Shown one piece after another: positions 478-13,488 of a stretch of 44,206 bases of DNA. How positions within the stretch are numbered: the first letter of the stretch is position 1; the number at the start of each line of letters is the position of its first letter. The notes beneath the pieces are model-generated. The model saw nothing but the letters and a program-made list of their open reading frames with translations. It searched no databases and had not been told where the DNA came from. Origin of the DNA: Mariniblastus sp. (GTDB lineage: Bacteria > Planctomycetota > Planctomycetia > Pirellulales > Pirellulaceae); NCBI GenBank assembly GCA_023300235.1, contig JALZWN010000222.1:1-44206 (forward strand), given 5' to 3'. A program made the translations under genes and the position numbers.

Positions 478-2034
478 ATGCACAAGCCATCGGCGAAACG
501 CGAATCCGTGATCGAGATGCTCGAACACGGCGGCTTGACCGAACAGAACGTTCGCAACATCTCGCAGCAAACCGGCGTACCCGAAGCCGACATCTGGGGA
601 GCCGGTTCGTTCTACCACCTAATCGACGACCAACAGGACCTCGCCGCCGGCCCGCAGGTTCGCGTTTGCAACGGGCTGACTTGTCGCCTGCGAGGGGCCG
701 ACGCGCTGGCCGATCGCCTGACTGCCGCAGGTCGCTCCGTCACTCGGATTAGTTGCCTCGGCCAATGCGATTTGGCACCGGCTCTACTAAACGAGCAAAC
801 CGAACTCGAAACCTTTGCCGCGACCCAAACCGCCGTCACCCCCGACAACCCTGCCCTGCCCTTGAACTTGGGCGGCGAAGTCGATGGCTCGTATCGGAAT
901 CTCGCCAAAGCAAAACAGATGTCCGCCGAACAAATCATCCAGCAGCTGGAGGCCGCGGGCTTGCAAGGCCGCGGCGGCGCGGGGTTCCCGGCGCACTTTA
1001 AGTGGACTTCCGTTTGCCAGCAAATCAAAACCGAACGCTACGTGATCTGCAACGCCGATGAAGCCGAACCGGGCACGTTCAAAGACCGCGAGACGATGTT
1101 GCGGCAACCACACAAAATGTTTGAAGGGCTCGCCATCGCCGCTCATGCGATCCAAGCCAGCAGCATCTACATCTATATTCGCGGCGAGTACGTTAACGAA
1201 TACCGGGTTATCGCCGAGGCACTCGAACAAGCCCAGCCTCACCTATCCGATTTTGACATCAAGATCGTTCGCGGACATGGGGCTTACATCTGCGGCGAGG
1301 AAACGGCGTTGCTGGAATCGCTCGAAGGCAAACGTGGCATGCCGCGGCTGAAACCGCCCTACCCTACCGAGTCCGGTTTTCGCGGCAAACCGTCTTTGAT
1401 CCACAACGTCGAAACCATCGCTTGCGTGCCTGCGATCATCGAACACGGCGGCGAGTGGTTCAAAAACCTCGGCCGCACCGAACCCGGCACCAAGTTGTAT
1501 TGCATCTCGGGGCACGTCAATGCTCCGGGCGTTTACGAATTGCCGCTGGGCGTTTCTTTGAACGAACTGGTTGAAGCGGCGGGCGGCTACGAAGGCACGC
1601 CGATCGGGTTTTCTCCCGGCGGGGCCAGTTCTGGATTTTTGCCGATCAGCATGAACGATCTGCCTTTGGATTACAAGAACCTATCCGAAGCCGGTTCGAT
1701 GATGGGCAGTGCTGGCGTGGTCGTGTTGAACGACACCGTCGACATGGCGAAAGCGGCCGCGTGGCAGTCTGAGTTTTTTGCGATCGAAAGCTGCGGACAA
1801 TGTGCCCCCTGTCGCATCGGCACTCAGTACATTCACCGACAAGTCGACAAGTTCGTGCAGCTTGGCGACGCATCCGCTTTGGACATGACCGCCGACGTTG
1901 GTTGGGAGATGGAAGAAGGTTCCATCTGCGGGTTAGGCATGGTCGCGGCCAAACCGCTCGAGTCCGCGATGAAGCACTTTCCAGACGCGTTTGAAGATCG
2001 CACCAAAACAAATAAAACAACGGGCCAAAACTAG
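478..2034 (+). CDS. fdhB: NAD(P)-linked formate dehydrogenase beta subunit (NuoE/NuoF fusion)
   Basis: This is the diaphorase subunit that passes electrons between the FdhA iron-sulfur chain and NAD(P)+ through FMN; it is expected to be cytoplasmic. The 518-residue protein fuses two complex I-like modules. The NuoE-like thioredoxin-fold part has 2Fe-2S ligands C64, C69, C93 and C97. The NuoF-like part has the glycine-rich FMN/NADH motif GLQGRGGAGF (161-170), CNADEAEPGTFKDRE, and GAYICGEETALLESLEGKRG. An SLBB segment follows, then the 4Fe-4S ligands C439, C442, C445 and C484. All expected ligands are present. The next gene, fdhA, begins 7 nt after the stop, so the two form an operon. The layout resembles FdhB of acetogens and FdsB of aerobic bacteria, and NuoF of a partial complex I is a weaker alternative. 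The ATG at 478 has a weak GGA upstream. Confidence 0.9.
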   Translation: MHKPSAKRESVIEMLEHGGLTEQNVRNISQQTGVPEADIWGAGSFYHLIDDQQDLAAGPQVRVCNGLTCRLRGADALADRLTAAGRSVTRISCLGQCDLAPALLNEQTELETFAATQTAVTPDNPALPLNLGGEVDGSYRNLAKAKQMSAEQIIQQLEAAGLQGRGGAGFPAHFKWTSVCQQIKTERYVICNADEAEPGTFKDRETMLRQPHKMFEGLAIAAHAIQASSIYIYIRGEYVNEYRVIAEALEQAQPHLSDFDIKIVRGHGAYICGEETALLESLEGKRGMPRLKPPYPTESGFRGKPSLIHNVETIACVPAIIEHGGEWFKNLGRTEPGTKLYCISGHVNAPGVYELPLGVSLNELVEAAGGYEGTPIGFSPGGASSGFLPISMNDLPLDYKNLSEAGSMMGSAGVVVLNDTVDMAKAAAWQSEFFAIESCGQCAPCRIGTQYIHRQVDKFVQLGDASALDMTADVGWEMEEGSICGLGMVAAKPLESAMKHFPDAFEDRTKTNKTTGQN

Positions 2035-2041
2035 GTTACTC

Positions 2042-4792
2042 ATGAATCGCCCCCATCAAAACAAAAAAGCAACCCAAACGTTCTCCGTCGAAATCAACGG
2101 CACTAAGTGCTCGGCCGAAACCGGCGAGACCGTGTTCAACGTGGCGAAACGAAACGGGATCGACATTCCGGTTCTATGCCACGACGATCGACTGGCTCCA
2201 GCGGGCGCGTGTCGCGTTTGCTTGGTCGAAGTCGAAGGCCAACGTCGTTTGCAACCCGGCTGCGCGTGGGTGGTGACGCCCGACATGCAGGTCACAACCG
2301 AATCGGACCGCATCGAAAAACACCGGACCGTTCTGTACAACCTGTACATGGCCGACCACGAATTGGACGCCGCAGGCCTTCCGGTCGAAACCGAAAACAA
2401 CAACCAGCTTCGCGAGCTCTGCAAAACCGTCAAGCCAATGAAGCTCGCCCCGGTCAACGCCCCGCGGGACGCTCGACCGGCCGACAACAATCCTTACATC
2501 GAATTCAAACCCGACCTGTGCATCCTGTGTGCTCGTTGCACTCGCTACTGCGATGAAGTCGAAGGGGTCAACGCGATCACGCTGGCCAACCGTGGAGCCG
2601 AGACCACGATCGCGACGGCGGGACAGCGGAGCCTGATCGATACCAGCTGCGAACTGTGCGGCGGGTGCATCGACACTTGCCCGACAGGGGCACTCGTTGA
2701 AAAGAAGAGCCCACAAAACCTAGTCCAACTGGACGTCGCGACCACGCGGACGACTTGCAACTTTTGTGGCGTTGGTTGTCAGATGGATTTGCACACGCAC
2801 AACGATCGATTGGTCAAAATCACTAGCCCCGAACCCGGCCAGACGCTCAACGACGGAAACCTGTGCGTGAAAGGACGATTCGCGTTTGACTTTGTTCATC
2901 ACGAAGACCGAATCACCGAGCCCTTGATTCGCGGCGCCGATGGTCAACTCCATCCTGCCAGCTGGGACGAAGCGATCGCAGTTGCGGCGAAGGGGTTGTT
3001 GAAGGTCAAAGAAAAACACGGATCCGATTCGCTTGGTTTTATTTCCTCGTCACGTTGCACCGGCGAAGAAAACTACTTGATGCAAAAAGTGTCTCGAGCG
3101 GCCTTTGGGACGAACAACATTCACCAGTGTGCCGCCACCTGACATGCTCCTACTGTCGCCGGTCTGGTGACAATGTTTGGTGCTGGGGCGATGACCAACG
3201 CGATCGACGAGATCCGTGATTCGGAAATGATGTTCATCATCGGATCCAACACCACCGAGGCTCATCCGATCATCGCGATGGAGATGAAACGCGCCCGGCA
3301 ACGCGGGGCAAAGCTGGTCGTCGCTGACCCGCGAGAGATCTGGCTGGCCGAGATGGCGGATTTGCATTTGCAGCTCAAGCCAGGCACCGACGTTTGGCTG
3401 CTGTCCGCGATGGCTCATGTGATCATCAACGAAGGTTTGCACGATCAAGCGTTCATCCAGGCTCACACCGAAAACTTCCCAGCCGTCGTCGACAAAGTCC
3501 AAGCGTACTCGCCCGAAGAAGCCGAACAAATCACCGGCGTGCCGGCCGAAGACATCCGCACCGCCGCTCGCTGGTACGCCACGACTCGGCATGCCGGAAT
3601 CTATTACACGCTGGGCATTACCGAGCATACTCACGGGACGGACAACGTTTATTGTTTGGCGAATTTGGTTCTGATGACCGGTCACCTTGGCGTTCGTTCG
3701 GCGGGGATGAACCCGCTACGCGGACAGAATAATGTTCAAGGAGCGAATGACGCCGGGGCCACTCCGATTTATTTCCCTGGCTACCAAAAGGTGACGGACG
3801 ATTCGGTTCGCGAAAAATTCGAAGCCGCTTGGGACGTCCAGCTATCACCCGATGACGGGTTGAATTTGAATGTGATGATGAAAGAGATGGAACACGGCGG
3901 AATCAAGGGCCTGTACATCATGGGCGAAGACATCGTGATCTCTGAACCGAACGTGTCCAAAGTCGAACGTGGTTTGAATCAATGCGATTTTATCGTTTGC
4001 CAAGAGATCTTTCACAACGAGACGACTCGGTTTGCGAATGTGGTCCTGCCGGGTGCTTGCTTTGCAGAAAAGGACGGCGTGTTTACCAATAGCGACCGCC
4101 GCGTCCAACGGGTTCGCAAAGCGGTCGATCCACCGGGGGAAGCCAGACCGGACTGGTTGATTTTGTGCCAGATGGCTCGAGCGGCCGGCTACGCGATGCC
4201 GGAGTATCCTTCGCCGAAAGAGGTGTTTGACGAGTACGCTTCGTTGACGCCGAAAATCGCTGGAATTTCTTACGAGCGTTTACAGCAGAATCCATCGGGC
4301 CTGCAATGGCCTTGCCCGACCGCGGATCACCCCGGCACTCCGTCGTTGCATTTGGACGGTCCGATGATCGGTCGCGCTCCGTTTCAAGCGGTTGATTATC
4401 GGCCGAGTGCGGAACTGCCCGACGATGAGTTCCCGTTGGTGTTGTCGACGGGCCGGACGCTGTACCACTACAACAGCGCGTCACAGACTCGTCGCGATCC
4501 CGGGCCGGTTGCGAAGCAGCGAGAGAACTTTTTGGAGATGCACCGTTACAACGCGAAGCAGTTGGGCGTGAAGCACGGCGAGAAAGTTAAGGTGCTGTCG
4601 CGACGAGGAGCGGTTGAGGCCGAGGTTTGGGTGTCGCCGCGAGTGAGAGTGGGTTGCGTTTGGATGCCGATGCACTTTGCAGAATCACGAGCGAATTTAT
4701 TGACCAATGATGCGGGAGACGCAGTAACAGGAACGGGAGAATATAAAGTCTGTGCGGTGCGAGTTGAAAAGCTGGGCTGCGACCGGGGTTGA
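2042..4792 (+). CDS. fdhA: Formate dehydrogenase alpha subunit, predicted selenoprotein (Sec367 at TGA 3140-3142)
   Basis: Molybdenum/tungsten bis-MGD enzyme oxidising formate to CO2, or the reverse; predicted 916 residues. Order: plant-type 2Fe-2S domain (C46, C57, C60, C74); NuoG-like His-Cys region; two 4Fe-4S motifs (C160/163/166/170 and C203/206/209/213); MopB 4Fe-4S (C239, C242, C246 and a Cys in NLCVKGR); the catalytic molybdopterin domain; and a C-terminal dinucleotide-binding domain. The frame holds an in-frame TGA at 3140-3142 (codon 367). It falls in NNIHQCAAT-[TGA]-HAPTVAGL, which matches the family motif where Cys or Sec ligates the metal. Reading continues in the same frame to TGA 4790-4792 with all downstream family motifs intact, and a SECIS-like hairpin follows the TGA. 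I therefore read one selenoprotein, not two ORFs or a pseudogene. The start is ATG 2042, 7 nt after fdhB; an in-frame ATG at 1991 would overlap fdhB. The cell would need selA, selB, selC and selD, which are not in this window. Confidence 0.9.
3140..3171 (+). promoter_or_regulatory. Bacterial SECIS element with UGA (Sec) codon
   Basis: TGA at 3140-3142 is followed 12 nt later by a hairpin. The 5' arm GTCGCC (3155-3160) pairs along all 6 bp (one G-U) with GGTGAC (3166-3171), around the loop GGTCT (3161-3165). From memory, the E. coli fdhF SECIS has a GGUC apical loop beginning 18 nt after UGA; here GGTC also begins exactly 18 nt after the TGA. SelB is known to contact this loop. The bulged U of the E. 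coli upper stem is not obvious here. The hairpin lies within coding sequence, as bacterial SECIS elements do. Confidence 0.85.
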
Positions 4793-5092
4793 ATTTCAAG
4801 TCTTAAAAGCCTTGGCCAAAATAGTTGACACCGAGCATAACCTCGCCCCACCCATCAACAAATCTGCCTGATCGCTCACCATATCGCGTTTCCTTGAATC
4901 CTCCAGCACAATTCCCGATCCCCATCGGCCTGTTAATTACCGCCGAATCGGTTAAGCTTTACCGAGAACAGGCGACGCATAAATGGGCCCCGACGCGGAT
5001 CATTTGATTTTTATCGCGCCCCGGCGAACCATTTCGCTGACGTGACAAACTCGCTGATAGCCTGATTTGAAAACGATACGGTGGAGAACTTA
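4793..5092. other. intergenic region between fdhA and the moxR operon
   Basis: A 300-bp spacer. It has no convincing terminator hairpin and no credible gene; a 60-codon open frame at 4825-5007 has no recognisable features. It presumably holds the moxR operon promoter. The Shine-Dalgarno GGAG at 5083-5086 lies 6 nt before the moxR ATG. Confidence 0.5.
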
Positions 5093-6139
5093 ATGGCGGA
5101 CAACGCGGTAGGTCGCGAGGCGATCGATTTATTAACCAAAGCTCGCAAAGAAATCGGCGAAGAATTGGCCCAGGTCATTGTCGGTCAAACCGACGTTGTC
5201 GAACAAGTTTTGATCTCAATGTTCAGCCAAGGCCACTGCTTGCTCGAGGGAGTGCCCGGATTGGCAAAGACCTTGATGATCAGCACGCTCGCCGAAACGT
5301 TGAGCCTCTCGTTTTCTCGAATCCAGTTCACGCCTGACTTGATGCCGGCCGACATCACCGGCACCGACATTTTGGAAGAAAACAAAACGTCAGGAGCGCG
5401 TGAGCGACGCTTCATGGAAGGACCGATTTTCGCCAACATCGTGCTGGCCGACGAAATCAACCGGACACCGCCCAAAACCCAAGCCTCGCTGCTAGAAGCG
5501 ATGCAAGAACGCACCGTCACGGTCGGCCGAGTCCGACACAAGCTGCCGGATCCGTTCTTTGTGTTGGCAACGCAAAACCCAATCGAACAAGAGGGAACCT
5601 ACCCGCTGCCCGAAGCTCAGCAAGACCGTTTCATGTTCAAAGTTTTCGTCGACTACCCAAGCTTCGACGACGAGCTTGAAGTTGCTCGCCGGACGACCAA
5701 ACGCACAAACCATAACGTCAAACCGGTGCTCTCTGGCGAAGAAATTTTGAAACTCCAATCGACCATCCGTGACGTACCCGTCTCCGATCATGTACTGCGT
5801 TACGCATTGACACTCGTCCGCCAGACCCGAATCACTTCCGATGGTGCGCCTGATTTTATTAAAGACCAAATCGGCTGGGGAGCCGGCCCACGTGCAGTGC
5901 AGAATTTGATTTTGGGCGGCAAAACCCGAGCACTACTGTACGGCAGAACCCATGTCTCCACCGAAGACATCGACGCGCTGGCAAAACCTGTTTTGCGGCA
6001 TCGCATCGCCGTTAACTTTGCCGCTCAATCTGATGGCGTCACTTCCGACGACGTTATCGAACAGTTGATCGCCAACACTCCATCCAAAGAAGATGAATTG
6101 ACAAACGATGCCCGATTCCAAAAACTTTTTGCATCCTGA
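5093..6139 (+). CDS. MoxR-family AAA+ ATPase
   Basis: A cytoplasmic AAA+ ATPase of the MoxR family, thought to act as a chaperone-like factor that matures or activates partners containing VWA domains. Visible are Walker A GVPGLAKT (53-60), Walker B IVLADEIN (116-123), the family signature [13 protein letters not shown], the sensor-region sequence [22 protein letters not shown], and a C-terminal lid. The 348-residue length is normal for the family. I chose ATG 5093 over GTG 5081 because GGAG at 5083-5086 is ideally spaced for the ATG and would lie inside the longer reading. The 3' end overlaps the following DUF58 gene by 32 nt, so the two are probably translationally coupled. It is the first gene of a MoxR-DUF58-VWA operon. 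Confidence 0.92.
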
Positions 6140-7007
6140 AGCGATCAAGCGAATCGATCGACTGGACTTGCGAGCCCAACACATCGTGGAAGGGTTCATG
6201 TCCGGCAGCCATCGCAGCCCGTACTTCGGGCAGTCGGTCGAGTTCTTGCAGCATCGCGAATACCAGCTTGGCGACGACCTCCGTCACGTCGATTGGCAAG
6301 TTTGGGCGCGGCAAGATCGGTTGTACATTAAGCAGTTCGAAGAAGAAACCAACATGCGAGTGCAAATGTTGGTCGACGTATCCAGCAGCATGCAGTACGG
6401 CAACGGACCGCTGAACAAATACGAATACGCCGCCACGATCGCGACTTCGCTGGCGTACTTGGTCTTGAAAAAACACGACGCCGTTGGCTGCGTGACCTTC
6501 GACGAAAAGATCCGTCAGAACCTGCCGACGCGTTCAAAACACACGCAATTGAACTCCATCATCGCTAGTCTAGAAAACAGCAAACCAGCCGACAAAACCA
6601 ATCTGAATGAGATCTTCACCGCCGCCGCCGAGATGTTTTCGCGAAAAGGCGTCGTGATCGTCGTCTCGGATTTATTCGGCGACACCGACGCCACGCTCAA
6701 AGGACTGCGAATGCTGCGGCAGCGCGGGCATGACGTTTTATTGTTCCATTTACTCGACGACGACGAATTAGATTTCCCGTTCACAGGTTCGATGCAGTTT
6801 GATGACTTGGAATCTAACATTCAATTGAACTGCAACCCAAAAGCATTACGCGACGGGTACCTCAAAGAAATCAATTCGTTTTTGGAAACAATCAAAATTG
6901 GCTGTGCAAGAGCGGCAATTGACTACGCTTTGGTTCGCACCAGTGACTCGATGGGCGCCGTATTGGCATCGTTTTTGAGTCGTCGCATCGCACGGAATCG
7001 GGGCTAA
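6108..7007 (+). CDS. DUF58 domain protein with VWA-like MIDAS
   Basis: A 299-residue DUF58 protein, the usual partner of MoxR ATPases. The family signature is clear: [34 protein letters not shown] is recognisable at about 35-68, followed by a VWA-type metal site DVSSS (90-94) and a C-terminal Rossmann-like half containing [11 protein letters not shown]. There are no membrane segments, so it is probably soluble. Its start overlaps moxR by 32 nt, and its stop lies 2 nt before the next gene's ATG. DUF58 proteins are presumed to act with MoxR and the membrane VWA protein in envelope or stress functions, but the specific substrate is unknown. Confidence 0.9.
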
Positions 7008-7009
7008 GC

Positions 7010-9304
7010 ATGTTTGAAAACATTTTCACGCCCAGCCCGCAATTATGGACCGGCTTGATCGCCGCCGGCGTTGCCTTGCCTATCTTGATCCACTTGATCA
7101 ACATGATGCGGCACAAAAAAGTCAAATGGGCCGCGATGGAGTTCTTGCTCAAGAGCCACCGAAAAAATCGCAGCTGGGTCTGGCTCAAACAACTCCTGCT
7201 GCTGCTCAGCCGAATCGCGATACTGCTGCTGGCGTTGTTTATGCTGGCTCAAGTCGGTTGCGAAAACGACCGCGTGGCTCGCTTGTTGGGCGGCAAAACG
7301 ACTCACCACTACGTCCTGCTGGACGACAGCTTTTCGATGGGACAGCAAGACTCAAAAGGCCGAGCGTTCGACCGAGCCGTTTCGATGCTCAGCTCCGTGG
7401 CCGCTCGAGCCAAAAACCGACAGAATCAACTGTTCACGTTGCTTCCCTATTCATCCACCAAGCCAGCCGGTGCTTCGGAACGATTGGCCGCAGACGCAAA
7501 CGACGAACCCTCTTCGGCCGTGCTAGAGTCACAACAAGTCGACACGAACTTTGACCGCACGCTCGAAAGCCTCAAAGGGCAATTGCTGCTGTCCGAAACG
7601 ACAGCCGATGCCAGGGCTTCGCTGGCCAAAGTAGCCGAGTTAATTCAAAACCGAAAAGACGAAAATGCGATCGTCTATTTGATTTCTGATTTTTGCGAGC
7701 GAGACTGGCAAGAACCCGAAGCGCTTAAAGCCTCGATTCTGAACATCGAACGAACCGGCGCCGCGGTGGAGCTAATTGACTGCTCGCAAGCCGACGGGAC
7801 CAACTTAGCCGTCACGCAGCTTACTGCCGTTGGCAACGTGCGGGCGGCCGAGACTCCGCTGATGATGGAGTTGACCATCAAAAACTTTTCGCCGACGACC
7901 GCGAAGAAAATCCAAGTTCAAGTCGAGTCCCGGGAGTATCCGCGAGTGGAACAAGGCAGTCGAGCTGAAGATCTGGCACCGGAAGTGGTTCGCTTGCCGA
8001 CCGTGTTCATCGAGTCAATCGAGCCCGGCGATTCGGTTCAACAATCGTTTCCTGTTTTCTTTAATTCTGTCGGGCAGCATACCGTTGTCGCGAAAGTTGA
8101 AAACGACTCTTTGGCAGTCGACAACCAACGAACCTGTGTCGTATCGATCCAAAAGTCGTCGGAGGTTTTGTTGGTCGAGGCTGCTCCTGCTGAAACGAGC
8201 GAGATTTTTTCAATCGTGATGAATCCCGGCGGTAGTACGGGCATCGCAACCGAAACCGTTGACGAAGCTTTCTTGCGTGACTGTACGATCGAGCAGCTAA
8301 GTAAATACGATACGGTGTTTTTATTCGACGTCGGCAGCATTTCCGAAACGGGCATCAAGACGCTGGAGCAATACGTCGCCGACGGCGGCGGTGTGGTGTT
8401 TTTCATGGGGCCGAAAACTAATCTTGGGTTCTTCACTCAAGATCTGTATCGCCGCGGCGATGGTGTGTTTCCGATTCCGATCGAACGCATCTACGAAGTC
8501 CCTGAACGACTCGACGGCGAAGCCGCGGATATCCAAGCGATTCAGCATCCAGTGTTCGCACCCGCCAATTCCGTCAAGAACTCACTGCTGGATTTAGTTC
8601 AGATCAGCCAAGTCGTTGCTCCGCCGCTTGAGTGGAGTGGACGTGGCGGCGATTCGACGGTGGAGGTTTTGGCGACGCTGCGAGGAGCGAAACAACACCC
8701 GTTGGTGGTCGTTAAAAAGTTTGGTGCTGGCCATTGCGTTGCTGTGACAACAACCGCTGGCCCCCAGTGGAATAACTGGATGCGAAACGCGACTTACCTG
8801 CCAATCATGTTGTTGATGCAAGACTTTGTTGCTTCAGGCCGTTTTTCGAGCCTTGATCAACTGGTGGATCAACCGATCGTAGAAAGCTACCCAAAGAACG
8901 AGTTCCGCCAAGAAGCGACGATGGTCGTGGGCGAACCCGACGAGCGGATGCAGGTGCCGTTTGGCTTGGAAACGGGAGCAAAGGGCGAGCAACTGCTTGC
9001 GAATTTGAACACCGACAAGTCAACCGTTTATGAGATTTGGGGGCAACGAGTCGATGGCCAGATCGACGTTCGCCGAACCGCGATCAATGTCGATACGGCC
9101 GAGAGCGATTTGACTCAGGCGGACCGCAAGGTACTGGTTAATCGTTTATCGGCCACGCAAGCGAAATTGGTTGACTGGGACAAATTTAACCCAGAGCCAA
9201 AAATCAAACCTGCTTCGATGCTGAACCGCTTGTTGTTTTGCTTTTTGGTTTTAGTGCTCGTTGGCGAACAGCTGCTGGCGTACGCCACGAACTACCATCG
9301 CTAG
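7010..9304 (+). CDS. BatA-like membrane protein with VWA and GATase-like domains
   Basis: A 764-residue membrane protein. The N-terminus has two hydrophobic helices (about 13-32 and 60-81) flanking a basic HKKVKWAAMEFLLKS segment, which matches the double-transmembrane N-terminal domain of aerotolerance (Bat) and related proteins. A VWA domain follows with the MIDAS-type motif D105-x-S107-x-S109. The middle holds a CARDB/Ig-like stretch, then a Rossmann segment resembling class-I glutamine amidotransferases (KYDTVFLFDVGSI, YVADGGGVVFFMG). A final hydrophobic helix lies near the C-terminus (LLFCFLVLVLVGEQLLAY). It starts 2 nt after the DUF58 gene, so the three genes form one operon. The large middle region probably faces the periplasm. 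The function is inferred from the family: an envelope-associated partner of MoxR. Confidence 0.85.
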   Translation: MFENIFTPSPQLWTGLIAAGVALPILIHLINMMRHKKVKWAAMEFLLKSHRKNRSWVWLKQLLLLLSRIAILLLALFMLAQVGCENDRVARLLGGKTTHHYVLLDDSFSMGQQDSKGRAFDRAVSMLSSVAARAKNRQNQLFTLLPYSSTKPAGASERLAADANDEPSSAVLESQQVDTNFDRTLESLKGQLLLSETTADARASLAKVAELIQNRKDENAIVYLISDFCERDWQEPEALKASILNIERTGAAVELIDCSQADGTNLAVTQLTAVGNVRAAETPLMMELTIKNFSPTTAKKIQVQVESREYPRVEQGSRAEDLAPEVVRLPTVFIESIEPGDSVQQSFPVFFNSVGQHTVVAKVENDSLAVDNQRTCVVSIQKSSEVLLVEAAPAETSEIFSIVMNPGGSTGIATETVDEAFLRDCTIEQLSKYDTVFLFDVGSISETGIKTLEQYVADGGGVVFFMGPKTNLGFFTQDLYRRGDGVFPIPIERIYEVPERLDGEAADIQAIQHPVFAPANSVKNSLLDLVQISQVVAPPLEWSGRGGDSTVEVLATLRGAKQHPLVVVKKFGAGHCVAVTTTAGPQWNNWMRNATYLPIMLLMQDFVASGRFSSLDQLVDQPIVESYPKNEFRQEATMVVGEPDERMQVPFGLETGAKGEQLLANLNTDKSTVYEIWGQRVDGQIDVRRTAINVDTAESDLTQADRKVLVNRLSATQAKLVDWDKFNPEPKIKPASMLNRLLFCFLVLVLVGEQLLAYATNYHR

Positions 9305-9522: not shown

Positions 9523-10293
9523 CTAACCAAAGAAGTTGACCGCGTTTTCAAAGATCGCGAACCCATCGCCACGAGGACCGATATCTTCACGGGTCCAGCG
9601 AGGATGATGAGTCGGGTCGATGTTTCGTTCCGGGTGGGGCATCAGCCCGAAGATCCGTCCGGTTTCATCACAAACACCAGCGACGTCCGCGGTGGATCCG
9701 TTGGGGTTAGCCGGTCCGCTGTCGTTGCCCGTCGGCGACGGACAATAAGTTAACGCCAGCTGGTCTTGCGATTGCAGTGTCGAAAGAATCGAATCGTTTC
9801 GTGTAACGAATTTGCCTTCGGCGTGAGCGATCGGCAAGTACATGTGGTCGACATCTTTCAAAAACACGCACTTGCTGTGGTTGGTTTTCAAATCTACCCA
9901 ACGAGCAAGATAGCGGCCGGAATCGTTCCAAGTCAAAGTCGCTTGCATGCCTTCGTCGTCCATCGGCAACAAGAAACCTGATTTGATCAAGATTTGAAAC
10001 CCGTTACAAATCCCAAGCACCAACTTACCGGCGTCACGGAACTCGTTCAGCGTGTCGGCCAAGCGGTTTTGCATTTGGCTAGCGAGGATCCGTCCGGCGG
10101 CGATGTCGTCGCCGTAGCTGAAACCGCCAGGGAAACAGAGGATCTGGTGTTCGGCGACTAGCTGTGGCTGTTCCAGTAACTGGTTAATGTGAGCGTAAGT
10201 CGCTTTCGCGCCGGCTTGTTCGAAAGCGAAACCAGTTTCTTGATCACAATTGGTGCCAGGAGCTCGCAGGACGAGTACTTTAGGTGTGGACAT
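9523..10293 (-). CDS. purQ: Phosphoribosylformylglycinamidine synthase, glutaminase subunit
   Basis: The glutaminase subunit supplies ammonia from glutamine to PurL for the FGAR to FGAM step of purine synthesis; it acts in the cytoplasm. The 256-residue class-I amidotransferase has the start VLVLRAPGTNCDQET, the oxyanion-hole region FPGGFSYGDDIAAGRI, the nucleophile C96 in GICNGFQ, and the triad residues H220 and E222 in MPHPERN. It lies 132 bp downstream of purL on the same strand. The spacer carries a fragment similar to the inner part of the MITE-like repeat, so co-transcription is likely but coupling is not tight. The length is slightly above that of minimal PurQ proteins. Confidence 0.95.
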   Translation of the reverse strand: MSTPKVLVLRAPGTNCDQETGFAFEQAGAKATYAHINQLLEQPQLVAEHQILCFPGGFSYGDDIAAGRILASQMQNRLADTLNEFRDAGKLVLGICNGFQILIKSGFLLPMDDEGMQATLTWNDSGRYLARWVDLKTNHSKCVFLKDVDHMYLPIAHAEGKFVTRNDSILSTLQSQDQLALTYCPSPTGNDSGPANPNGSTADVAGVCDETGRIFGLMPHPERNIDPTHHPRWTREDIGPRGDGFAIFENAVNFFG

Positions 10294-10398
10294 GATTTGA
10301 GTTCTTATGTTTTTGTTGGACCGCTGGTTGTTACGCGGCGAGTTGATTGTTCTTTTTAACTTTGAAACGGCAGATCGGTCAAATTTGGATCGATGACC

Positions 10399-10420
10399 GG
10401 CTGCAGCCCATCACCACATT
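10399..10420 (+). repeat. fragment resembling the MITE-like repeat core
   Basis: GGCTGCAGCCCATCACCACATT closely matches the internal segment GGCTGGAAGCCCATCACCAC of the element at 287-414 and of its inverted copy at 30820-30973. It sits in the purL-purQ spacer. It may be a decayed insertion or a short shared palindrome, and the match is too short to decide. Confidence 0.4.
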
Positions 10421-10425
10421 TTTTG

Positions 10426-13400
10426 TTACCAGTTCAGCGGTTCTTGCCAAGCGGCTTTGAGTGACGCGATGTCTGATTTAATGACTTGCGAATGAGCAAG
10501 CTCAATGGTCAAAACGGGATCGGTGATGACCTCTCCTAACTTTACGATTTCGACGCCGTCAAAGTGAGCCTCGAACGCGGCGGCTTTTTCGGGTTCGACT
10601 TCGACCACGAAACGAGTGTTCGATTCCGAGAACAATACCGAAGCGATCACGTAACTCAAATCGACTTCCTCGTCCTCGCCGTACGCCAGCAAGTCCAAGC
10701 CAATCGCACTCGCATCGACGTTGGCTCCCAGTCCGCCAGCAAACGCCATCTCGGCCACCGCCGCCGCCAAACCGCCTTCACTCATGTCGTGGCAACTGCG
10801 GATCAAGCCCGTAGAAATCGCGGCGTGCATCTGAGCGAACGTGGTTTTGGCCAGCTCAGGGTCCACGGTCGGGACGAGGCCCCCGTCGATCTCGTTAACC
10901 AAACTCCAGTGTGACCCACCCAAGTGATCGCCCGTGATGCCGACCTGGTACAGCAAGTTGCCGGTCTTTTTCAAATCCATCGTCGTGCAGTTGGCAACGT
11001 CCGGCACTTGGCCCAACGCACTGATCAACAACGTCGAAGGAATCGAAATCGTTTGTCGGTCTCCATCGTCGTCGGTGTAGCTAAATTCGTTGTGCAGGCT
11101 GTCTTTGCCGCTGATGAAAGGCGTTTGTAAAACGACCGAGAGGTCTTGGCAAGCGATCGCTGCGCGGACCAGAGAGCCAAGCGTTTCCGGCCGATCAGTG
11201 AAGCCCCAACAGAAGTTATCCAAAATCGCGATGCGGCTCGGGTCGGCCCCGACGGCAACGCAGTTTCGAATCGCTTCGTCGATGCCGCTGGTGGCCATGT
11301 GGTACGGATCCAAATCACCGTACATCGGGTTCATGCCGCAGGATACCGCCAATCCGCGTCGCGATTCCAACAACGGACGAATCACCGCCGCGTCGCCGGG
11401 GCCGTCGTTTTGCACACCGACCAACGGCTTGATCACGCTGCCGCCTTGGACTTCGTGGTCGTACTGCTGAATGATCCATTGTTTACTGGCGACGTTCAGG
11501 CTGCCCAGGATTTTTGAGAGGTCGGCGGTCCAGTCGGCTGGTGTTTTTTCTGGAATGTTTTCGATTCGTTTGACCGGAGCTGGCGTGAAGTTTGCTTCGC
11601 GAATGATCGGCGGGCGACCATCGTGCAAAAACTCCATGCTCACATCGCCAACGACTGTGTCGCCGTATTTCAAAACCAAACGGCCGGTGTCTTCGAAACG
11701 ACCAATCGCGGTAGCCACAACCGATTCAGCCGCACACAAATCGCGGAAGGCTTCCCATTTATCTTCGGGAACCGAAAAGACCATCCGCTCCTGAGCTTCG
11801 GAAATCCAGATCTCAGTGTAAGACAAACCTTCGTACTTAAGCGGCACTTTGTCCAGCCAGACTTCCGCCCCGGTGTCTTCACCCATCTCGCCGACCGCAC
11901 TCGAGTACCCACCGGCACCGCAATCGGTCACGGCGTTGTACAAATTCAAATCGCGGGCTTGCAGCAGCACGTCCATTGCCATTTTTTCGGTCACCGCGTC
12001 ACCGATCTGCACGGCACCACCGGACGTGATATCGCTGTCCTCGGTGAGTTCAGCACTGCTAAACGTCGCTCCGTGGATTCCGTCGCGGCCGGTTTTGCCA
12101 CCGATCGAAACGATCAAGTCGCCGGGTTTGACTTCTTTGAAGGATTTGTCGTGAGGCAAAATGCCGACGTTGCCGCAGAATACCAGCGGGTTTCCAACGT
12201 AGCGATCGTCGAAGTAAACGGCTCCGTTGACCGTCGGGATACCCATCCGGTTTCCGTAGTCTCGGACACCGGCAACGACGCCTTGCATGATTTGCTTGGG
12301 GTGCATCACGCCCGGAGGAAGGTCTTCATAAGGCGTGTCGGGCGAAGCAAAACAAAACACATCAGTGTTACAAACGGGCTTGGCTCCCAGACCAGTTCCC
12401 AGCGTATCGCGAATCACCCCGCCGATGCCCGTGTTGGCACCACCGTAAGGCTCCAAAGCTGACGGGCGGTTGTGGGTTTCGACTTTGAACGCGACGTTGT
12501 GATCGCCTTCGAAACGAACGATGCCGGCGTTGTCTTTAAACACGCTAACGCACCAGTCGTCTTCGCCCAAGTCTTCGCGGATTTGCATCGTCGCGGCGAA
12601 AATGGTTTCCTTGAGCATGTTTTCGTATTGGCGAGTACCATTTTCGTCGGTGTAGGCGACTCGGCCAGCCAAGGTCTTGTGGCTGCAGTGCTCGGACCAA
12701 GTTTGAGCGACACTCTCCAACTCGATGTCCGTCGGGGCTCGGCCTTCGGCTTCGAAGTGATCGCGGATGACGTGCATTTCGGTCAGGGAAAGGCTGAGCG
12801 TCCAGTCTTTGCTGATTTTCATCAAATCGTCATCGCTGACCAAAGCGAGAGGCACGTCGGTTTTGACGAGTTTGTATTCGTTGCCAAGGTCTAAACGGTC
12901 GAGTTCCAAAACACCGGTAATGACGCGTTCGATCGATTCGTTGTGGAAAACTTTTTTCTGCAGCAGCGCCGTGTGGGATTCACTCAGCCCCGAGGCACAG
13001 AACTTTTTGAAGGTGCTGACCGCGTCGACGGCGTAGCCCAGTTGCTTCATCGCTCGCATCGCACTCTCGGCTTGCGAGTCCGTTACGCCGGGCAGCGGAA
13101 GCACGTAAGTCACGTTCGATTTGTCGGCTGGGGCTGGATTGATCGCAGTGCCGACGGGGCCAAAATCGCACTTTTGGACGACGGATTCGAACAAGAGTTC
13201 CCGAGTCAGCTGATCGACGTCGGCGGCGGTCAAATCGCCTTGGATTAGAAATCCGTGATTGGCCGTCAGGCTCAAGTCGTTGATTTGCAGCAGTTTGGCA
13301 CTGGCCAACGTTTCTTCTGCCAGCAGGTTGGGATTGCCAGGCAGCGGCGAAATGTCGATTTGCCAGATTTGCGGCGATCCGTTGCTAGGAGTGGCCGAAT

Positions 13401-13488
13401 TCGAGCTTGCAATGGTTTCTGTAGAGTCTGTCACGATTTTTGGCGTGTTGAAAATGTTGTCAGTCAACCTACGGTGGCTTGGAAGCAC
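10426..13488 (-). CDS. purL: Phosphoribosylformylglycinamidine synthase, PurL with PurS-like N-terminus
   Basis: The ATP-dependent synthase converts FGAR to FGAM, using ammonia from PurQ. At 1020 residues it is longer than the usual small PurL (about 740). The extra N-terminus (about 40-200) holds two PurS-like segments, [15 protein letters not shown] and [20 protein letters not shown], followed by the catalytic AIRS-type repeats with [12 protein letters not shown] and [18 protein letters not shown]. It therefore looks like a large-type PurL lacking its glutaminase domain, which is encoded separately as PurQ, or like a PurS-PurL fusion. No separate purS is seen here. The start is uncertain: GTG 13488 gives the length quoted, GTG 13434 would remove 18 poorly conserved residues, and neither has a strong Shine-Dalgarno sequence. 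It is divergent from the tRNA-Arg unit. Confidence 0.93.

Follow-up and report, generated by a model that had tools for sequence, protein, structure and literature searches.

The fdhA gene in the window, by which we mean the whole 44,206-nucleotide stretch of DNA analysed here, is read with very high confidence as encoding the alpha subunit of an NAD(P)-linked, Mo- or W-dependent formate dehydrogenase. Residue 367 of this protein would be selenocysteine (Sec), inserted at an in-frame UGA through SelA, SelB, SelD, tRNA-Sec and a SECIS element. The reading is drawn from sequence comparison. Sec-containing formate dehydrogenases are a well-known kind of selenoprotein that has been described in related bacteria, and no new principle is involved.

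A single UGA codon at the catalytic position of FdhA

The translation of fdhA from 2042 to 4789 contains only one internal stop, the TGA at codon 367. The open reading frame list holds two same-frame fragments, 1991..3142 (with a TTG start; the ATG lies at 2042) and 3167..4792. When the gene is translated from 2042 to 4792, coordinates and frame agree with the original prediction that both fragments share one frame running through this codon. Calculated with Cys substituted for Sec, the mass of the resulting protein is 100.7 kDa, or about 101 kDa. From the N to the C terminus, Pfam recognizes 2Fe-2S, a NuoG-like ferredoxin region, Molybdop_Fe4S4, Molybdopterin and Molydop_binding domains. Scored with C written for Sec, FdhA reaches 789.2 bits over residues 237-908 against TIGR01591, the NCBIfam model of the formate dehydrogenase alpha subunit, for which the curated cut-off is 666.25.

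The motif at codon 367 is HQCAAT-U-HAPTVAGL. It includes the catalytic Cys/Sec together with His-x-Pro (U-H-A-P, residues 367-370), and UHxP is the catalytic motif of formate dehydrogenases (PMC13188914). The alpha subunits of the best solved relatives, PDB 9wxb and 6tg9, are like FdhA over nearly its full length (residues 15-909 and 16-909, respectively), and 9wxb has a Cys where the window fdhA has UGA. The original prediction had placed the motif CAAT-U-HAPTVAGL at the catalytic Cys/Sec position; this placement is borne out by the Cys of 9wxb, which aligns at residue 367, and by the occurrence of either Cys or TGA at that codon in 110/110 loci. The coordinates of the features are collected in Table 1.

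Table 1. Location of fdhA, its partner gene, the recoding signals and the Sec-related genes found elsewhere in the same genome.
Feature	Location	Strand	Details
fdhB-like diaphorase subunit	478..2034	+	518 aa; NuoE-NuoF fusion
fdhA, formate dehydrogenase alpha subunit (predicted)	2042..4792	+	916 residues, 1 predicted Sec codon; terminal TGA 4790-4792
UGA, predicted selenocysteine codon, residue 367	3140..3142	+	aligned with the catalytic Cys/Sec of formate dehydrogenases
SECIS apical hairpin (predicted)	3155..3171	+	stem GTCGCC/GGTGAC, loop GGTCT
tRNA-Sec (selC)	contig C278, 5.0 kb		69.8 bits, cut-off 47
SelB	contig C146, 15.1 kb		367.9 bits, cut-off 242.25
SelA	contig C297, 5.2 kb		573.2 bits, cut-off 267.9
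SelD	contig C283, 29.3 kb		279.5 bits, cut-off 125
AhpC/TSA frames with in-frame TGA (L147, L148, L149, L150, L151)	contigs C60, C84, C117, C157, C69		selenoprotein candidates

Codon 367 is either UGA or Cys among relatives

Codon 367 was compared in 110 loci, comprising 30 from 392 genomes of the phylum (best-scoring matches, window included) and 80 named loci, which are the best 80 of at least 586 confirmed. It is TGA in 84/110 loci and TGC or TGT in the other 26, with no other codon found (0/110); within the named set the counts are 54/80 for TGA and 26/80 for Cys. L104 and L126 each gave a second match, with Cys, that is not part of the 110-locus count. L026 and L061 are identical, so at least one genome is common to both locus sets; compared over 36 bases, 74 of the 84 UGA rows are distinct. 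TGA occupies the codon in all eight of the named records L051-L058, which are 75-81% identical to the window FdhA, and in the partial record L072 (76% identity) as well. Elsewhere in the aligned stretches, stops are found only at residues 912-914, the gene end, in three loci.

These counts bear on the possibility of a pseudogene or of a sequencing or assembly error, in which TGA would have replaced an original TGC or TGT and truncated the gene. Decay or error often lies behind in-frame stops, and the genome is a draft. The same TGA nevertheless recurs in 83 further loci, among them independent named assemblies from several phyla, TAA or TAG occurs at codon 367 in 0/110 loci, the domains encoded by the downstream half of fdhA are intact, and the SECIS described below is kept at synonymous sites past the codon. 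Because TGA is kept at codon 367 among relatives, sequencing error, chance or a decaying gene is very unlikely, and we allow this explanation only the slightest chance of being right.

Among the relatives in the phylum sample that have no internal stop, the highest-scoring one (G056:C2:1795550-1798246, 55% identity) belongs to a genome with a SelA match; a Sec-to-Cys change in this relative is possible.

A conserved hairpin follows the UGA

In the bacterial SECIS model (PMC13188914), the apical loop is small, has G in its first two positions and lies 16-37 nt from the UGA. The fdhA hairpin agrees with this description, since its loop is GGTCT and 18 nt separate the UGA from the first loop G. 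The stem-loop starts 12 bases past the UGA; with the T of TGA as position 1, it spans 16-32, positions 16-21 pairing with 27-32 around a loop at 22-26. Taken by itself, the window hairpin is not unusually stable (MFE z -0.40; 56/200 shuffles fold as well), and all six pairs also form in 1120/5000 synonymous shuffles of the window. Because the single hairpin is not significant, the case for a SECIS rests on comparison among relatives.

Synonymous shuffles that preserve the protein and local codon use served as the reference. The GGTCT loop is present in 74/84 UGA rows, against a mean of 13.3 and a maximum of 23 in 500 shuffles; among the Cys rows it is at chance level (3/26, shuffle mean 3.3). 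UGA rows form a mean of 5.48 of the 6 stem pairs (shuffle maximum 4.67), and the Cys rows show a slight excess too (4.27, shuffle maximum 4.15). Standard pairs fill 90.3% of the pair cells in the 84 UGA rows (74 distinct, ungapped), compared with a shuffle mean of 77.3%, and pairing falls to 58.3% or less when the 3' side is slid out of place. Pair 18-30, in which both partners are third codon positions, is GC in 39 rows, CG in 24, UA in 4, AU in 2, GU in 1 and unpaired in 4, and the covariation score was matched by 0/500 shuffles. Three stem pairs have changed on both sides, which is unexceptional as 65/500 shuffles have as many. In a hand-picked set of 40 UGA rows 98.3% of the cells are paired, a figure that flatters the stem, as L028-L034 and many others are out and none past L095 is in. 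Overall, the alignment points to a bacterial SECIS after the fdhA UGA that is both conserved and covarying.

Six UGA rows, L029-L034, form only 0-1 of the six stem pairs and were retained in the SECIS counts. They are related planctomycete fdhA genes with the motif HFPTEQALV (EQAL for VAGL) and without the usual GGTCT hairpin; an alternative stem of the AAGCTCT/AGAGCTT type lies about 5 bases further downstream. The position of the SECIS has thus apparently switched within one gene family.

The genome encodes the Sec decoding machinery

The original prediction had named the absence of selA, selB or selC as evidence against itself. In the organism's own genome selA, selB, selC and selD were all found, each above its curated cut-off (Table 1). 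ARAGORN also calls a tRNA-SeC with anticodon TCA, SelB carries the SelB winged-helix domain, and SelD (L019:298-2511) has an N-terminal pyridine-nucleotide oxidoreductase domain fused in front. The reading of UGA as Sec put forward in the original prediction is supported by these four genes and by the comparative SECIS signal, and Sec is almost certainly inserted at residue 367 of FdhA.

The sel genes are scattered over four different contigs, none of which is the fdhA contig. In planctomycete P1 the Sec-insertion genes are likewise reported not to be co-localized (PMC4807772). As the Mariniblastus genome is a draft (4.73 Mb, 311 contigs, completeness 94.8, contamination 1.57) with its sel genes on four contigs other than that of fdhA, some residual chance of a binning error attaches to their assignment.

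A general reassignment of UGA in this organism, for example to Trp, would also produce a frame that runs through TGA. Against it, TGA terminates 6/23 of the larger window open reading frames (a hand-picked set that includes fdhA), and the tRNA with the UCA anticodon is called tRNA-Sec by ARAGORN. Additionally, in the six TGA-bearing frames examined the codon falls at the FdhA catalytic Cys/Sec position or in a thioredoxin-type active-site motif. We regard a reassigned code as negligibly probable, and Sec insertion at codon 367 as the reading to be retained.

Across the phylum, a SelA match at E 1e-60 or better was found in 242/392 genomes, 239 of which are over the cut-off. Where a TGA-fdhA was verified at the codon, 29/30 genomes have such a match, against 213 of the 362 others, a comparison group that includes some genomes with TGA-fdhA or TGA-bearing relatives whose codons were left unread; the association has a Fisher p of 7e-6, by hand tally and with kinship ignored. 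The exception is G164, which has a TGA-fdhA but no SelA match at E 1e-60. SelB passes its cut-off in 14/14 of a chosen set of genomes from named relatives and SelA in 13/14, the one genome with no selA over the cut-off being the source of L053. The Sec trait therefore looks common in the phylum.

Pipelines that take no account of Sec would drop such enzymes from their gene lists or divide them. The original prediction had expected automated callers to annotate two truncated proteins here; in RefSeq, E. coli K-12 fdhF is a single CDS across its TGA, so the splitting of such genes depends on the annotation pipeline.

A partner gene and a proposed mechanism

The end of the fdhB-like gene is separated from the fdhA ATG by 7 bases. 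The fdhB-like product contains the Pfam domains 2Fe-2S_thioredx, Complex1_51K, SLBB and NADH_4Fe-4S, which amount to a NuoE-type thioredoxin-like 2Fe-2S part joined to NuoF-type FMN/NADH and 4Fe-4S domains. A homologue is found in 63/80 named loci, some loci being cut by contig ends. The L051-L058 homologues are 63.8-72.7% identical and lie upstream of fdhA, at a distance of about 160 bases or less in seven of the eight and about 1.1 kb in L056. A NuoF-type FMN/NADH subunit, as expected for an NAD(P)-linked FdhAB enzyme, is encoded together with fdhA. The gene pair has the anatomy of such an enzyme, for which cofactor, metal and reaction direction are predicted from its genes. Upstream of the fdhB-like gene, the contig end (1-98) consists of a perfect 13-base tandem repeat in 4.8 copies followed by an 18-base repeat in 2.4 copies with 88% matches.

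The roles of SelA, SelB and SelD in Sec insertion are established knowledge, and they suggest how the enzyme may be made and work. SelA would convert tRNA-Sec using selenophosphate made by SelD, and SelB would deliver it while binding the stem-loop 12 bases past the codon, so that the ribosome would read the UGA at 3140-3142 with tRNA-Sec(UCA) and place Sec at residue 367. FdhA would then act as the catalytic (alpha) subunit of a molybdenum- or tungsten-dependent, NAD(P)-linked formate dehydrogenase, its activity being predicted, and the upstream gene would supply the FMN/NAD(H) subunit in the form of the NuoE-NuoF fusion. Electron transfer would link formate, at a metal ligated by Sec, with NAD(P) by way of the Fe-S clusters of FdhA. 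The genome also encodes, away from fdhA, FdhD, a factor for the maturation of formate dehydrogenases.

Decoding of a UGA is in competition with termination, and this competition lends some plausibility to a variant in which Sec is inserted but the UGA works as a partial selenium-dependent switch, with only an N-terminal Fe-S fragment made when selenium is lacking. FdhA has a single match at E 1e-100 in its own genome, so there is no obvious close Cys backup. Yet of the four genes with a Molybdopterin-domain match in this genome fdhA alone carries the TGA, leaving three others without it. We consider such a switch unlikely, and favour plain Sec insertion into a full-length FdhA.

Relationship to known systems

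A quick tree was built from 91 rows, made up of the window, 14 chosen phylum rows and the 76 of the 80 named loci in which 800 or more residues align. The window groups with the Pirellulaceae records L054 and L055 (support 96), and next with L051-L053, labelled Planctomycetaceae and Pirellulaceae (support 99); further records of Planctomycetota, Acidobacteriota and Myxococcota surround this group. By these neighbours, the source of the window is probably a Pirellulaceae-like planctomycete. A Sec-FdhA/nuoEF operon has been described in planctomycete P1, from Porphyra umbilicalis, and in the myxobacterium Plesiocystis pacifica, and horizontal transfer between the two lineages was inferred there (PMC4807772). 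The neighbourhood of the window in our tree is consistent with this proposed transfer. As described (PMC4807772), the P1 operon resembles ours in that a planctomycete Sec-FdhA is encoded with nuoE and nuoF, away from the sel genes; the two differ in organism and in that the NuoE-like and NuoF-like parts form one gene here, the likeness being one of description.

The Moorella mulderi FdhA (L087) has TGA at the same codon, a GGTCT SECIS loop and a NuoF-like partner upstream. It is 47% identical to the window protein and falls on the opposite side of the midpoint root of the tree. E. coli K-12 fdhF shares with the window the TGACAC start and a GGTCT at 22-26 counted from the T of TGA, whereas its product (PDB 1aa6, 715 aa) matches FdhA residues 237-915 only and does not have the N-terminal Fe-S region.

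Other UGA-bearing genes in the genome

An in-frame TGA was also found in 5 of the 23 AhpC/TSA-family matches in the same genome. Four of them have the codon in a U-x-x-C motif (W-U-PYC, W-U-PFC, W-U-PPC and W-U-GPC), and the fifth reads T-U-PPF. Past each TGA lies a possible hairpin of six or more pairs, its loop containing G-U and beginning at the 21st to 32nd base after the TGA; the GGTCT loop of fdhA starts at the 19th. The hairpin search admitted only loops that have G in the first two positions and was run without a shuffle control. These five frames, examined within this genome, are selenoprotein candidates only.

With five AhpC/TSA genes bearing an in-frame TGA, the organism is likely to have at least six selenoproteins and looks like a general Sec user. 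Six selenoproteins is the threshold for calling an organism "selenoprotein-rich" in PMC5029168. It is reasonably probable, if well short of certain, that this is a selenoprotein-rich, Pirellulaceae-like planctomycete in which FdhA and at least five thioredoxin-fold selenoproteins share UGA recoding, with SECIS loops starting at the 19th to 32nd base. If so, one SelB would serve SECIS elements at quite different spacings.

Other features of the window

Downstream of fdhA and on the same strand, MoxR-type AAA ATPase, DUF58 and BatA-like genes occupy 5081-9304. The minus strand carries purQ and purL-like genes at 9523-13488.
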